A program made the translations under genes and the position numbers. From positions 1-62,609 of the IMG/VR virus record IMGVR_UViG_3300044691_000253: a DNA stretch of 62,609 nt; one strand, given 5' to 3'. The notes under the pieces are model-generated. The model did no database searches and was not told the DNA's origin. It worked only from the letters and a program-made list of their open reading frames with translations. Shown in pieces: positions 5,712-34,827 of the stretch. Positions within the stretch are counted from its first letter, which is position 1. Each line of letters opens with the position of its first letter. This DNA comes from a virus.

Positions 5712-5963
5712 TCAATATCCTAGTTGCTGTAGCTCGTCGGCCGTGTGTATCCGCGTGACCTTGACACCGCTGACCCGGCGGCCAACCGTGTGGATCACGA
5801 GCTTGGTCTTGAACCGGCGGCCTCGGGTCCGACCAAAGTGATTGACCGCGTTGTGGACGTTGCTCGCATGCCGCTCGGGCGAGGTGTCGGCCGGGACGGA
5901 TAGGATCACGCTTTCGCCGCGCTCCAGCTTCGCGATCTCGGGGTAGTCTCCGCGGTATTTCAT
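5712..5963 (-). CDS. Hypothetical protein, first gene of the leftward operon (83 aa)
   Basis: GGGAG lies eight bases before the ATG. The protein (MKYRGDYPEIAKLERGESVI...) is basic, with an RTRGRRFKTK patch, and would suit DNA or RNA binding. It is promoter-proximal, next to the control region with an inverted repeat at 5997-6010, so a regulatory role is possible. No family recognised with certainty. Confidence 0.7.
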   Translation of the reverse strand: MKYRGDYPEIAKLERGESVILSVPADTSPERHASNVHNAVNHFGRTRGRRFKTKLVIHTVGRRVSGVKVTRIHTADELQQLGY

Positions 5964-5996: not shown

Positions 5997-6010
5997 GGTG
6001 AGTTATCACC
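5997..6010. promoter_or_regulatory. Inverted repeat, candidate operator of the leftward operon
   Basis: GGTGA-GTTA-TCACC is a perfect palindrome with 5-bp arms, 34 bases upstream of the first leftward gene. On the minus strand a weak TTGCAA...TAACTC promoter would overlap it. The operator role is inference. Confidence 0.4.
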
Positions 6011-6303
6011 TCTTATTTGGCTTTGCAAGCCATTTTCACGTCGAAAACCGATACCCGTGCACGCTTGTCGTAGGCGGGTGCATGGGGGTCGAAAACAGGG
6101 TTGCGCGAGGCTGTTCTCGCCGCGGATAAGTGGTGAGACCCAGAGGGCCGCAATTAACCTAAACCGGGTTTAACCTACTGACGGATCAGCGGTATCGGCT
6201 CGGCCGGAGGGCTAGTTGCACGCTTCTCACCTTATTCGATTTCTCAACCCCCTACTCACCGCTCTGCTGAACTCTTACCGTTGATAACACTACAATTTCT
6301 CAG

Positions 6304-6373
6304 CTTCTCAGGTCTTTAGTATATTCTAGGTTAAAGGTTGTTATTATATGGAGTGTGGAATTGACCTGAGAAG
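6304..6373. repeat. 11-bp inverted repeat flanking an AT-rich core
   Basis: CTTCTCAGGTC at 6304-6314 is the exact reverse complement of GACCTGAGAAG at 6363-6373. The 48 bases between are AT-rich (TTATTATATGG and similar). Resembles an unwinding element bracketed by protein sites. No function shown. Confidence 0.55.
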
Positions 6374-6473
6374 GCTAGAAGAGGTCTCTTTTTGTGGCCT
6401 ATGGCTGACCTCGTCCCCTACCTAGCAAGGGCACTAATTTAGAGTTATGATTAATGCCCTCTAGGGGCGCGCG

Positions 6474-6497
6474 TTAACCTTAACTATTAATCTTAAT
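6474..6497. repeat. TTAACCTTAA palindrome, copy 1 (imperfect)
   Basis: Left arm TTAACCTTAA is intact; the right arm reads TTAATCTTAA with two mismatches. Followed by ATGCC like the other copies. Starts exactly 47 bp before copy 2. Confidence 0.7.
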
Positions 6498-6519
6498 GCC
6501 CGCGACCCGCCCAGCCCCT

Positions 6520-6544
6520 ATTAACCTTAATTATTAAGGTTAAT
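6520..6544. repeat. TTAACCTTAA palindrome, copy 2 (perfect)
   Basis: Two perfect 12-bp arms, ATTAACCTTAAT and its complement, around a single central T. A 25-bp dyad of this quality is a typical protein-binding site (repressor operator or replication iteron). Confidence 0.8.
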
Positions 6545-6566
6545 GGCGGGCTAAGTACCTGATTTC

Positions 6567-6591
6567 ATTAACCTTAATCATTAAGGTTAAT
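6567..6591. repeat. TTAACCTTAA palindrome, copy 3 (perfect)
   Basis: Same two 12-bp arms around a central C, starting exactly 47 bp after copy 2. Confidence 0.8.
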
Positions 6592-6722
6592 GGCCCAGAC
6601 CCCCTATTGGTGCATACCTCGCGTACCGCACACAGGCTAAGTGTTTGATATCGTTTCACTATTACCCTTTTGTTCCATAATACACGTTATGCGTTATGTG
6701 ATGTCCATACGCAACCTATACG

Positions 6723-6745
6723 TTAACCTTAATAGTTAAGGTTAA
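6723..6745. repeat. TTAACCTTAA palindrome, copy 4
   Basis: Arms TTAACCTTAA and TTAAGGTTAA around TAG; 155 bp after copy 3. Followed by TGCC as in copy 1. Confidence 0.8.
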
Positions 6746-6816
6746 TGCCAGCTAGGCGCTGGCGCAGGCCTTGACCCCCTCGAAAGGTTGGTGCTACCGT
6801 GGCCCCGCAGAGATAC

Positions 6817-6835
6817 GGGGTAGGACCCCATTTTT
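6817..6835 (+). terminator. Terminator-like hairpin in the control region
   Basis: GGGGT-AGG-ACCCC followed by A and five T. It would stop rightward transcripts that begin in the palindrome region, so it may act as an attenuator or end a short leader RNA. Confidence 0.5.
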
Positions 6836-6887
6836 GTTGCAGTGCGCCATATGCTATGTCCCCTAGCTCATACACTCCGTTTGCGAT

Positions 6888-6917
6888 TTGAGTGAAATTT
6901 AGAAAAAATAAAAATAT
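6888..6917 (+). promoter_or_regulatory. Candidate promoter of the rightward early operon
   Basis: TTGAGT at 6888 with an A-rich -10 (AAATAT at 6912, 18-bp spacer) just after the terminator-like hairpin. An alternative start site is TTGTCC at 6964 with TAGGCT 17 bp further on. Both are weak matches to sigma-70 promoters. Confidence 0.3.
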
Positions 6918-7027
6918 GGGGTTAGGAAAAATTAACCACGCCGATCGGATTTAGAAAAAGACCTTGTCCGTGACGAGGTCATGCGGTAGGCTACTTCATA
7001 GGGGCATCCCGCCCCGGAGAACCGTAG

Positions 7028-7252
7028 GTGAAAACCAGTATCGCGATCAAGACCAAGCAGGCGCGAGCCGAGGCCGCCTTCAAGAGGGCCAACCCCGGAT
7101 GGACCGTGCTGCAACCGTGGACCGCACCGCTCGCGCCGCAGTTCAATAAGGCCGAGCCAATGCTCGCAGGGAAGTTCGATGCAGTCGGGCCACTCGGCAA
7201 CCGGCGCAACGTATGGGCGACAGTTTATGAGGATGGCATTCGCATCTTCTAA
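7028..7252 (+). CDS. Hypothetical basic protein (74 aa)
   Basis: First rightward gene. GTG start with GGAG eight bases upstream. MKTSIAIKTKQARAEAAFKR... has a basic helical N-terminus and a beta-like C-terminus. No family recognised. Confidence 0.65.
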   Translation: MKTSIAIKTKQARAEAAFKRANPGWTVLQPWTAPLAPQFNKAEPMLAGKFDAVGPLGNRRNVWATVYEDGIRIF

Positions 7253-16551: not shown

Positions 16552-16585
16552 CTAAAGACTGTTGCAGGATGGCTGTTAGGGAGGT

Positions 16586-16654
16586 GTTAACCATTGCCAA
16601 CGGTTTGCCTTGTGCCCCCGTCAGGGACAGGCTACATCAGGGCATCAGCAACGA
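16586..16654 (+). repeat. 69-bp duplicated leader, copy 1
   Basis: Begins GTTAACCATTGCCAACGG and ends GGGCATCAGCAACGA, 11 bases before the ATG at 16666. 60 of 69 positions match copy 2 exactly 480 bp downstream. Both copies could hold TTGnnn, 17 bp, TACATC, a promoter-like pair. The position directly before two genes points to a shared promoter or regulatory leader. Confidence 0.75.
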
Positions 16655-16665
16655 AGGACTACCCG

Positions 16666-17070
16666 ATGTCACAGTTTCGCGTCTACTTCTACAACGCCGT
16701 GACCCGTCAGGAGATGACGGACTACGAGGGCAACGGCAAAACGTGGATGTCGCTCGGCGGCAACGCCCTGAATGCCAAGGGCCAGTTCGTGCGCGGCACT
16801 GCCACCGAAGTCGGCTTCGCGAACTACGCGAGCCTCTCGAAGGTGAGCGGCGAGAAGCGCGTCACGGCGGCGGACTTCGATCATCCGGTCGCGGTCAAGG
16901 TTTGGTATGGCCCCTCGCGTGAGGACAACGAGAGCGTCGAATGGCGCAAGCTCGTCGCCTCGAATGCGTTCGCCACTTCGGACGCGGTCCACGTGTTCAA
17001 GCCGGGGAGCCGCGACGCGAAGGCCGCCGAGGCCGAGTATGCACCCAAGAAGGCGTTAAGGAAGCGTTAA
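16666..17070 (+). CDS. Hypothetical protein (134 aa)
   Basis: ATG after the duplicated leader: MSQFRVYFYNAVTRQEMTDY. Strand-rich with Lys/Ala-rich C-terminal tail (EYAPKKALRKR). Its stop codon is the first part of leader copy 2 (GTTAACC). No recognised fold; an abundant DNA-binding or virion protein would fit, but there is no direct evidence. Confidence 0.65.
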   Translation: MSQFRVYFYNAVTRQEMTDYEGNGKTWMSLGGNALNAKGQFVRGTATEVGFANYASLSKVSGEKRVTAADFDHPVAVKVWYGPSREDNESVEWRKLVASNAFATSDAVHVFKPGSRDAKAAEAEYAPKKALRKR

Positions 17071-17134
17071 CCACCGCCAGCGGATTGGCTTGCGGCCCCG
17101 TCAGGGACGGGCTACATCAGGGTATCAGCAACGA
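17066..17134 (+). repeat. 69-bp duplicated leader, copy 2
   Basis: Begins GTTAACCACCGCCAGCGG, ends GGGTATCAGCAACGA, 9 bases before the ATG at 17144. Contains CCCGTC-AGG-GACGGG, a 6-bp hairpin that has one mismatch in copy 1. Confidence 0.75.
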
Positions 17135-17143
17135 GGCGACCCA

Positions 17144-17419
17144 ATGACCAATGAAAAAGAGCTTCCCTACACCGTCGATCTCACGGAGCTTCGCCTCGCC
17201 GACATTGTCGAGCTTTTCGATGGCCCCTTCGGGACCGCCGTCGTGACGCAAATCACAGCGGACGAAGTGATCCTCCACCGCCCCTTTGGCGTGACTGGCG
17301 ATTTCAGTTACACGGGCGGCGTCCCCTACTCGGTCGGCAACGAGGTTTGCAAATACCTTCTTGCCAGCACCAAGGGTCACTACAAGTTCAAAGTCTGGCA
17401 GAGGAAGGACCTCCGCTGA
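17144..17419 (+). CDS. Hypothetical protein (91 aa)
   Basis: MTNEKELPYTVDLTELRLAD...; strand-rich small domain with a Cys near the C-terminus. Preceded by leader copy 2 and ends in TGATG with the RHH gene. Unknown. Confidence 0.65.
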   Translation: MTNEKELPYTVDLTELRLADIVELFDGPFGTAVVTQITADEVILHRPFGVTGDFSYTGGVPYSVGNEVCKYLLASTKGHYKFKVWQRKDLR

Positions 17420-17625
17420 TGGTAGGCCGCCCGCGCATATACAAAACGGATGAAGAGCGCTTGGCCGCGAAGAAGGCGGCCAAGCAGAAGTTCAAGAACG
17501 TCACCCTAGACGCTGACCTCGTGGACGCGCTCAACCTCGTCTCCGACAAGCTGGAGCCCGAACTCGGGTTTCGGCCGACGCTATCTCAAACCGTTCGCCA
17601 CCTCATCAAGAAAGACCACCGATGA
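17419..17625 (+). CDS. Ribbon-helix-helix type regulator with AT-hook-like GRPR (68 aa)
   Basis: Starts MVGRPRIYKTDEERLAAKKA; GRPR resembles an AT-hook and is common at the N-terminus of phage and plasmid RHH proteins. Then FKNVTLDADLVDALNLVSDK forms the strand and first helix and PTLSQTVRHLIKK the second helix, as in Arc/CopG-type repressors. Likely dimeric DNA-binding regulator; its targets could include the palindromes at 6.5 kb or the leaders just upstream (inference). Confidence 0.65.
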   Translation: MVGRPRIYKTDEERLAAKKAAKQKFKNVTLDADLVDALNLVSDKLEPELGFRPTLSQTVRHLIKKDHR

Positions 17626-19820: not shown

Positions 19821-19846
19821 CCGCACAAGCTCAAAGGATTAGATCG

Positions 19847-34610: not shown

Positions 34611-34802
34611 ATGCTCACGATCACCAAAGCTAATCCTCAAGGCCCGCACGTCAAGCTTGAGGCAGATGGTTCAAGAACGCACTTGCTTGGCGAAGTGCAC
34701 ATGAAAGTCAGCGGCCCGCTGCAAACGGAAATCCTCAAGGCCCGCACGTCAAGCTTGAGGCAGATGGTTCAAGAACGCACTTGCTTGGCGAAGTGCACAT
34801 GA
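34611..34802 (+). CDS. Small protein disrupted by a tandem duplication (63 aa as read)
   Basis: MLTITKANPQGPHVKLEADG and so on. A 98-bp exact duplication begins at 34632; because 98 is not a multiple of three, the frame shifts and the product now ends RTCLAKCT. Without the duplication the protein would be 44 aa and end LQTEKKEK. The original was probably a small decoration or tail-associated protein; function unknown. Confidence 0.55.
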   Translation: MLTITKANPQGPHVKLEADGSRTHLLGEVHMKVSGPLQTEILKARTSSLRQMVQERTCLAKCT

Positions 34803-34827
34803 AAGTCAGCGGCCCGCTGCAAACGGA
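34632..34827 (+). repeat. Perfect 98-bp tandem duplication
   Basis: 34632-34729 and 34730-34827 are identical at all 98 positions. Very recent event or an assembly artefact. Confidence 0.9.

Follow-up and report, generated by a model that had tools for sequence, protein, structure and literature searches.

A 23-bp TTAA-box element between divergent gene blocks recurs in phages of alphaproteobacteria and may be an operator for a host regulator

What is the function of a cluster of long palindromes in the gap between two divergent gene blocks of a phage? The DNA analysed here is a virus record of 62,609 nt (62.6 kb, hereafter the window, meaning the whole stretch), for which an earlier note had proposed that four palindromes at 6474–6745 mark either a replication origin with iterons or a multi-operator switch. 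The cluster of four is real, with four matches to the pattern TTAACCTTAANNNTTAAGGTTAA at up to three mismatches compared with a mean of 0.01 in 100 shuffles, and no match to the reversed pattern in the window. Each match is a copy of a 23-bp element, TTAACCTTAA-N3-TTAAGGTTAA (general form TTAASSTTAA-N3-TTAASSTTAA), made of four TTAA boxes and standing at set distances from promoter hexamers. Element 1 (6474–6496, TTAACCTTAACTATTAATCTTAA) is imperfect, with two mismatches, and elements 2 (6521–6543), 3 (6568–6590) and 4 (6723–6745) match the pattern perfectly. Viewed as dyads, those at 6520 and 6567 are perfect over 12 bp, as had been claimed, the one at 6723 is perfect over 10 bp and the one at 6474 is imperfect. 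Successive elements are spaced by 47, 47 and 155 bp, which bears out the exact 47-bp spacing described for the first three, and TTAA offsets within the gap are 6, 7, 13 and 19. All seven exact TTAASSTTAA boxes of the window lie within 6474–6745. The description of the region as gene-free and AT-rich also holds: the GC content is 0.475 at 6001–7000 compared with approximately 0.61 in the surroundings, and no open reading frame (ORF) of at least 60 aa lies between 6010 and 6931. Directly left of element 1 is a conserved block, GGCACTAATTTAGAGTTATGATTAATGCCCTCT (6430–6462), common to the related phages L005 and L006 in alignments.

Leftward genes end near 6009 and rightward genes start at 7028. 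The first leftward gene (5712–5963, minus strand, 83 aa), which has a similar ORF in the related phage L006, and the first rightward gene (7028–7252, plus strand, 74 aa), taken from the ORF list, have no known domain and no Pfam match. The leftward block of the window includes an Rv2179c-like nuclease, and that of the related phage G004 encodes a family A DNA polymerase, a DUF2800/PD-(D/E)XK exonuclease and a ParB-like protein. The rightward block consists of small genes of no known function followed by terminase, portal, head and tape measure genes. A repeat search also found a second inverted repeat near the leftward promoter, with its left arm at 6297–6314 (TTCTCAGCTTCTCAGGTC) and its right arm at 6363–6380 (GACCTGAGAAGGCTAGAA). 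This repeat (TTCTCAGCTTCTCAG / CTGAGAAG) is of a different operator type and flanks an AT-rich, promoter-like stretch; its counterparts in L003, L005 and L006 are related but diverged, and it looks more like the site of a phage-specific protein.

The element is kept in related and in unrelated phages, so the lack of conservation in related phages that the earlier note had named as telling against its reading is not what we found. The exact 23-mer has 12 matching stretches in IMG/VR but is missing from 257 Gb of bacterial and archaeal genomes, and the element occurs in at least 20 other phage records, for which the named hosts are Brevundimonas, Caulobacter, Sphingomonas or Erythrobacter. Kin sharing many proteins with the window (L001, L003, L005, L006 and L008) have the same gap at the same divide, with two to four elements at differing spacings, and the unrelated phages L002, L004 and L007 have one or two elements in successive intergenic regions. 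When the gap was used as the query in a sensitive DNA search, 25 records of annotated phages matched, 23 of which infect Brevundimonas, Caulobacter, Sphingomonas, Sphingobium or Erythrobacter, the other two being unassigned faecal records. At up to one mismatch the element was present in 21 of the 22 records tested and the reversed control in 0 of 22; given that these records were chosen for matching, it is the zero control and the host pattern that carry information. In Lacusarx the element is found only at two mismatches. One gap per genome (56–127 kb) holds all TTAASSTTAA boxes of the window, of four kin and of Leszy, Delta, R22L and MMDA13. In eight capsid or terminase relatives from Pseudomonas, Bordetella, Variovorax and Roseobacter hosts, by contrast, there is neither a TTAASSTTAA box nor, at three mismatches, an element. 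Comparing the carrier hosts with these element-free relatives indicates that the element tracks the host group and not the phage lineage. The Roseobacter phage RDJL3, a relative without the element, calls for caution with this pattern. Roseobacter also has CtrA, and the large terminase subunit of the window is nearest to that of a Roseobacter phage.

The hosts themselves do not use the element, given that the exact 23-mer is missing from the 257 Gb and that its inverted form, at up to one mismatch, is absent from 337 alphaproteobacterial genomes. Exact matches to the general form number 47 in the 257 Gb and are mostly chance-like, in AT-rich genomes, with the exception of one conserved promoter in five Rhizobiaceae metagenome-assembled genomes (MAGs; L028, L029, L047, L053 and L070). 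These contain direct-repeat TTAACCTTAA boxes in 13-bp steps, followed by TTAACCAT, upstream of a gene that its N-terminal sequence suggests encodes an outer-membrane protein.

On the rightward side, the elements are set at stereotyped distances from a putative early promoter. Its -35 hexamer, TTGACC (6771–6776, plus strand), was aligned in kin, and its likely -10 region, CTACCG (6794–6799, plus strand), follows after a 17-nt spacer in the kin alignment; element 4 ends 25 nt before the -35 hexamer. Across the kin and L082, TTGAC starts 13–14 or 22–25 nt after a site in 11 cases compared with 0.4 in shuffled flanks, although these distance classes had been noticed before they were tested, and the 11 cases include leftward-pointing ones. 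The two classes are about one helical turn apart and, by standard promoter geometry with start sites deduced from hexamers, would place the palindrome centre near -61 or -71. Class I CRP-type activator sites are likewise palindromes about 61 or 71 bp before the start, two positions that differ by one helical turn, but the window sequence is different, corresponds to no known activator and has its starts deduced from hexamers. In L004, the element is followed after 27–28 nt by TTAACCAT or a close variant and after a further 15 nt by a TTGCA-type -35, so that most promoters have 50–51 nt between the element end and the -35 and a single one has 60 nt. L007 repeats this arrangement with the complete CtrA box TTAA-N7-TTAACCAT, the distance being 58–60 nt or 51 nt; one L007 promoter lacks the CtrA box and has a distance of 22 nt. 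In both phages (L004 2385–8226, L007 3503–10379) each successive gene has its own promoter of this kind, in the order TTAA element, TTAACCAT or full CtrA box, -35, -10, GTCAACA..GGAG and start codon. In the window, a leader, GAGATACGGGGTAGGACCCC, follows the rightward hexamers. The block GAGATACGGGGTAGGACCCCA (6810–6830, plus strand), a short hairpin and then a U-rich run with a terminator-like match, is conserved in a six-phage alignment of kin downstream of the putative promoter; its hairpin barely outfolds shuffles (z -1.4), and hence we report it only as a conserved block, possibly an attenuator or small RNA.

A set of 107 sites, scored on the TTAA boxes alone, was used to derive the site grammar. 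Among 270 TTAANNTTAA boxes in the set of phages, the C/G pair is CC in 108, GG in 103, CG in 50 and GC in one, so that nearly every box (261 of 270 with CC, GG or CG) presents TTAAC on at least one strand and thus has the TTAAC(C) half-site of a canonical CtrA site. Box pairs are inverted (CC..GG) in 46 of the 107 sites, direct in 24 and everted in none, and the outer boxes are better conserved than the inner ones (16 compared with 61 mismatches). A simpler form, TTAACC-N7-TTARGG, is also found outside the boxes, for example as TTAACCATATCTGTTAGGG in MMDA13, the divide of which has four matches; Lacusarx, Marchewka and L007 have close variants, and a related form in R22L ends in TTAAGA. Shuffles contain this form rarely or not at all, and most phages tested have it within the gap region or close by. 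By contrast, the CtrA-type pair (offset 11) repeats directly, and in 19 of 29 cases its second TTAA is followed by CC. The commonest spacing of successive elements is 47 bp, with 15 cases in ten phages (the window and nine others, three being mutually close relatives). Several of these phages have a third box exactly seven bases from each neighbour (23 + 7 + 10 + 7 = 47); in the window and L004 the middle box is gone and the 47-bp spacing is retained. Helical phasing between successive elements was considered and dropped, given that spacings of 47, 55, 66, 71 and 155 bp have no common phase.

The window also has CtrA-type promoters outside the gap. Pattern searches located TTAG-N7-TTAACCAT ... 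CTTGTGC-N17-TACATC at 16576–16637 and TTAA-N7-TTAACCA ... CTTGCGG-N17-TACATC at 17056–17117, both on the plus strand and lying in an 80-bp imperfect repeat of each other. Promoters of the form TTAACCA-N15/16-CTTG-N17-CTA number 2–5 each in the window and four kin compared with 0.05–0.20 expected (two compared with 0.05 in the window, 4–5 in each of the kin), and a search with the CtrA-type promoter repeat returned weak, chance-level matches only. Within the gap there is no exact TTAA pair at offset 10 or 11, as the canonical CtrA spacer would give; the sole exact offset-11 pair of the window is the one at 17056.

Gaps rich in TTAA-N7-TTAA have been described in Delta, MMDA13 and phiCbK-like phages (Mascolo et al. 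2022, PMC9437464). Together with the Lacusarx gap, they resemble that of the window in being large, AT-rich, intergenic and promoter-linked, in lying between divergent blocks and in being filled with TTAA repeats; they belong to phages of alphaproteobacterial hosts, and Delta and MMDA13 carry the element themselves. In the window, too, the TTAA boxes are gathered in a single intergenic gap that separates divergent blocks. However, the published sites are TTAA-N7-TTAA (PMC9437464), whereas the window gap has none exactly, and no such cluster, and instead has TTAASSTTAA-N3-TTAASSTTAA. Without the CtrA spacing, the element is best regarded as a distinct motif within a CtrA-linked kind of gap and not as a CtrA site. 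In phage Delta, an 81-bp fragment from upstream of DELTA_120 is shifted by phosphorylated CtrA (CtrA~P), and DELTA_120 expression rises when CtrA is lost, CtrA acting from this fragment as a repressor (PMC9437464). The fragment, which we located through its 68-aa ORF, contains both a single one-mismatch copy of the element and N7-spaced TTAA pairs, and CtrA binding there therefore need not be to the element. DNA containing the element is bound by CtrA in this one published case (PMC9437464), in which the share of the element is not separated. Caulobacter CtrA promoters, with full TTAA-N7-TTAA or half TTAA sites (PMC4287350, PMC11264516), are similar in their TTAAC-type half-sites near the -35, in the modulation of a promoter by multiple upstream sites and in repression or activation according to position, but the element is inverted, has a 13-bp box spacing and lies upstream of the -35 instead of over it. 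The 12-bp imperfect direct repeat TGCGTTAACCAT of MMDA13 (PMC7472734) shares TTAACC repeats and a place in the non-coding divide upstream of the early arm, although only the left half of the motif was described there.

The reading that we prefer, and to which we give about even weight, is that the array is an operator through which a host reader of TTAAC gates the divergent early operons of an alphaproteobacterial phage. The window phage most likely infects an alphaproteobacterium, and the reader is most likely host CtrA in a non-canonical arrangement, or else a host factor acting with CtrA. A reader bound at about -61 or -71 would be placed as a class I-type activator of the rightward promoter, the upstream copies 47 bp apart could make occupancy cooperative and threshold-like, and a copy overlying a promoter would have a repressing effect, like that of CtrA in phage Delta. 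Through such a gate, early expression of the small early genes (rightward) and the replication genes (leftward) would depend on the state of the host cell. Both CtrA in a non-canonical arrangement and a partner such as MucR would fit the Rhizobiaceae cousin of the element and its absence from host genomes.

Another proposal, which we hold tentatively and somewhat below an even chance, is that the doubled TTAACC-N7-TTARGG serves a second regulator, other than CtrA and probably of host origin, and that unrelated alphaproteobacterial phages have placed it beside CtrA boxes by convergence. The promoters of L004 and L007, in which the element stands beside a separate TTAACCAT box, suggest such a second protein. 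Phage early promoters would then read two host signals simultaneously through a reusable module with a 47-bp repeat.

It is less likely, although still a realistic alternative, that the array is an ordinary early operator switch read by a small, fast-evolving phage-encoded repressor or activator of the RHH or HTH type. The full inverted element is absent from host genomes, small early proteins of no known fold flank the gap, and the more variable second inverted repeat (TTCTCAG...) near the leftward promoter looks phage-specific, all of which this alternative would explain. However, phage-encoded operators normally diverge along with their repressor, whereas the element sequence is constant in phages without any such common gene, and relatives in other host classes lack it. 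Neither of the binders suggested in the earlier note, an RHH protein (17419) and the first leftward product (5712), gained support, with no Pfam family match for the products of 17347–17622 and 5715–5963. No recognisable small regulator common to the carriers was found by all-against-all blastp or with 183 hidden Markov models (HMMs) of kin families, a search in which the L002, L004 and L007 contigs are partial and very small proteins can escape. The matches of these HMMs elsewhere were to polymerases, nucleases, structural proteins and a few proteins of no known function, none of them in all carriers, and none of the shared proteins has a recognisable DNA-binding domain. One small family (123 aa) without a Pfam match was found in the kin, Leszy, Delta and MMDA13 but not in R22L. 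Early proteins tested against Pfam and PHROGs yielded no DNA-binding regulator, and weak HTH matches proved to belong to the terminase small subunit. A phage-encoded reader of the element is hence disfavoured, and the host pattern and the constancy of the sequence favour a host reader.

Nucleation at the array of the host H-NS-like silencer MucR, which has a preference for AT-rich DNA, is improbable. It would account for the TA steps, 6, 7 and 6 bp apart in the four TTAA boxes, and agrees with the multiple TA steps of MucR sites (PMC10746212), with the coincidence of MucR peaks and CtrA promoters (PMC4287350) and with the host MAGs that have direct-repeat boxes upstream of an outer-membrane protein gene. 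However, MucR sites have little sequence consensus (PMC10746212), whereas C/G pairs, box spacing and orientation are tightly kept here.

The two halves of the original proposal fared differently. The divergent divide, the promoter distances and the conservation support a switch, whereas an origin with the palindromes as iterons or initiator sites is very improbable. An AT-rich stretch with repeated palindromes at the divide, and a leftward replication operon in G004, would suit an origin. However, the GC-skew analysis that had been suggested as a check showed no sustained sign change, with only the AT skew flipping, as the coding strand does, and we found no DnaA-like box; kin differ in the spacing and number of copies, and other phages have the element in front of one gene after another. 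Iterons would moreover be asymmetric direct repeats beside a Rep gene, whereas here the repeats are palindromes and the flanking genes tested have no Pfam match. The array also differs from the scattered, repressor-bound stoperators of mycobacteriophage L5, in that the window boxes are all in one gap and scattered sites occur only in other phages (L004 and L007). That the palindromes work as hairpins in RNA transcribed across the gap, as terminators or processing sites, is barely credible, despite the perfect dyads and an Rfam search of them that gave only sub-threshold microRNA-like matches, one of them to a dyad pair, given that the AT-rich arms lack a U-run, many variants are in direct or mixed orientation and the sites lie upstream of promoters.

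Phage reading of the host cell cycle through CtrA is a recent proposal based on TTAA-N7-TTAA sites. CtrA-bound phage gaps have thus been published already, and what appears to be new, judging from the sequences compared, is a second, stricter motif with its own spacing rules in such gaps; among the matches listed, a literature search gave no record of the TTAACCTTAA palindrome as a regulatory site. If the motif is a further geometry of CtrA binding, existing maps of CtrA sites in phages miss part of them. If it is read by a different factor, the early promoters of these phages have a second host input still to be found, for which the element is a ready-made bait and the isolated phages Leszy, Delta, MMDA13 and R22L are test systems.

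Other repeats and gene structures were seen along the way. At 34632–34827 of the window a 98-bp stretch is present as a tandem duplicate with 100% identity, and four copies of a similar 46-nt stretch including ATGAARGACSCNYTNGGNCAYGG-like sequence, at 19832, 20206, 21343 and 21828, are probably the common start of a small-protein family. In L002 (230–4138) and L007 (12686–14653), the terminase large subunit genes are interrupted by intein or homing-endonuclease domains.
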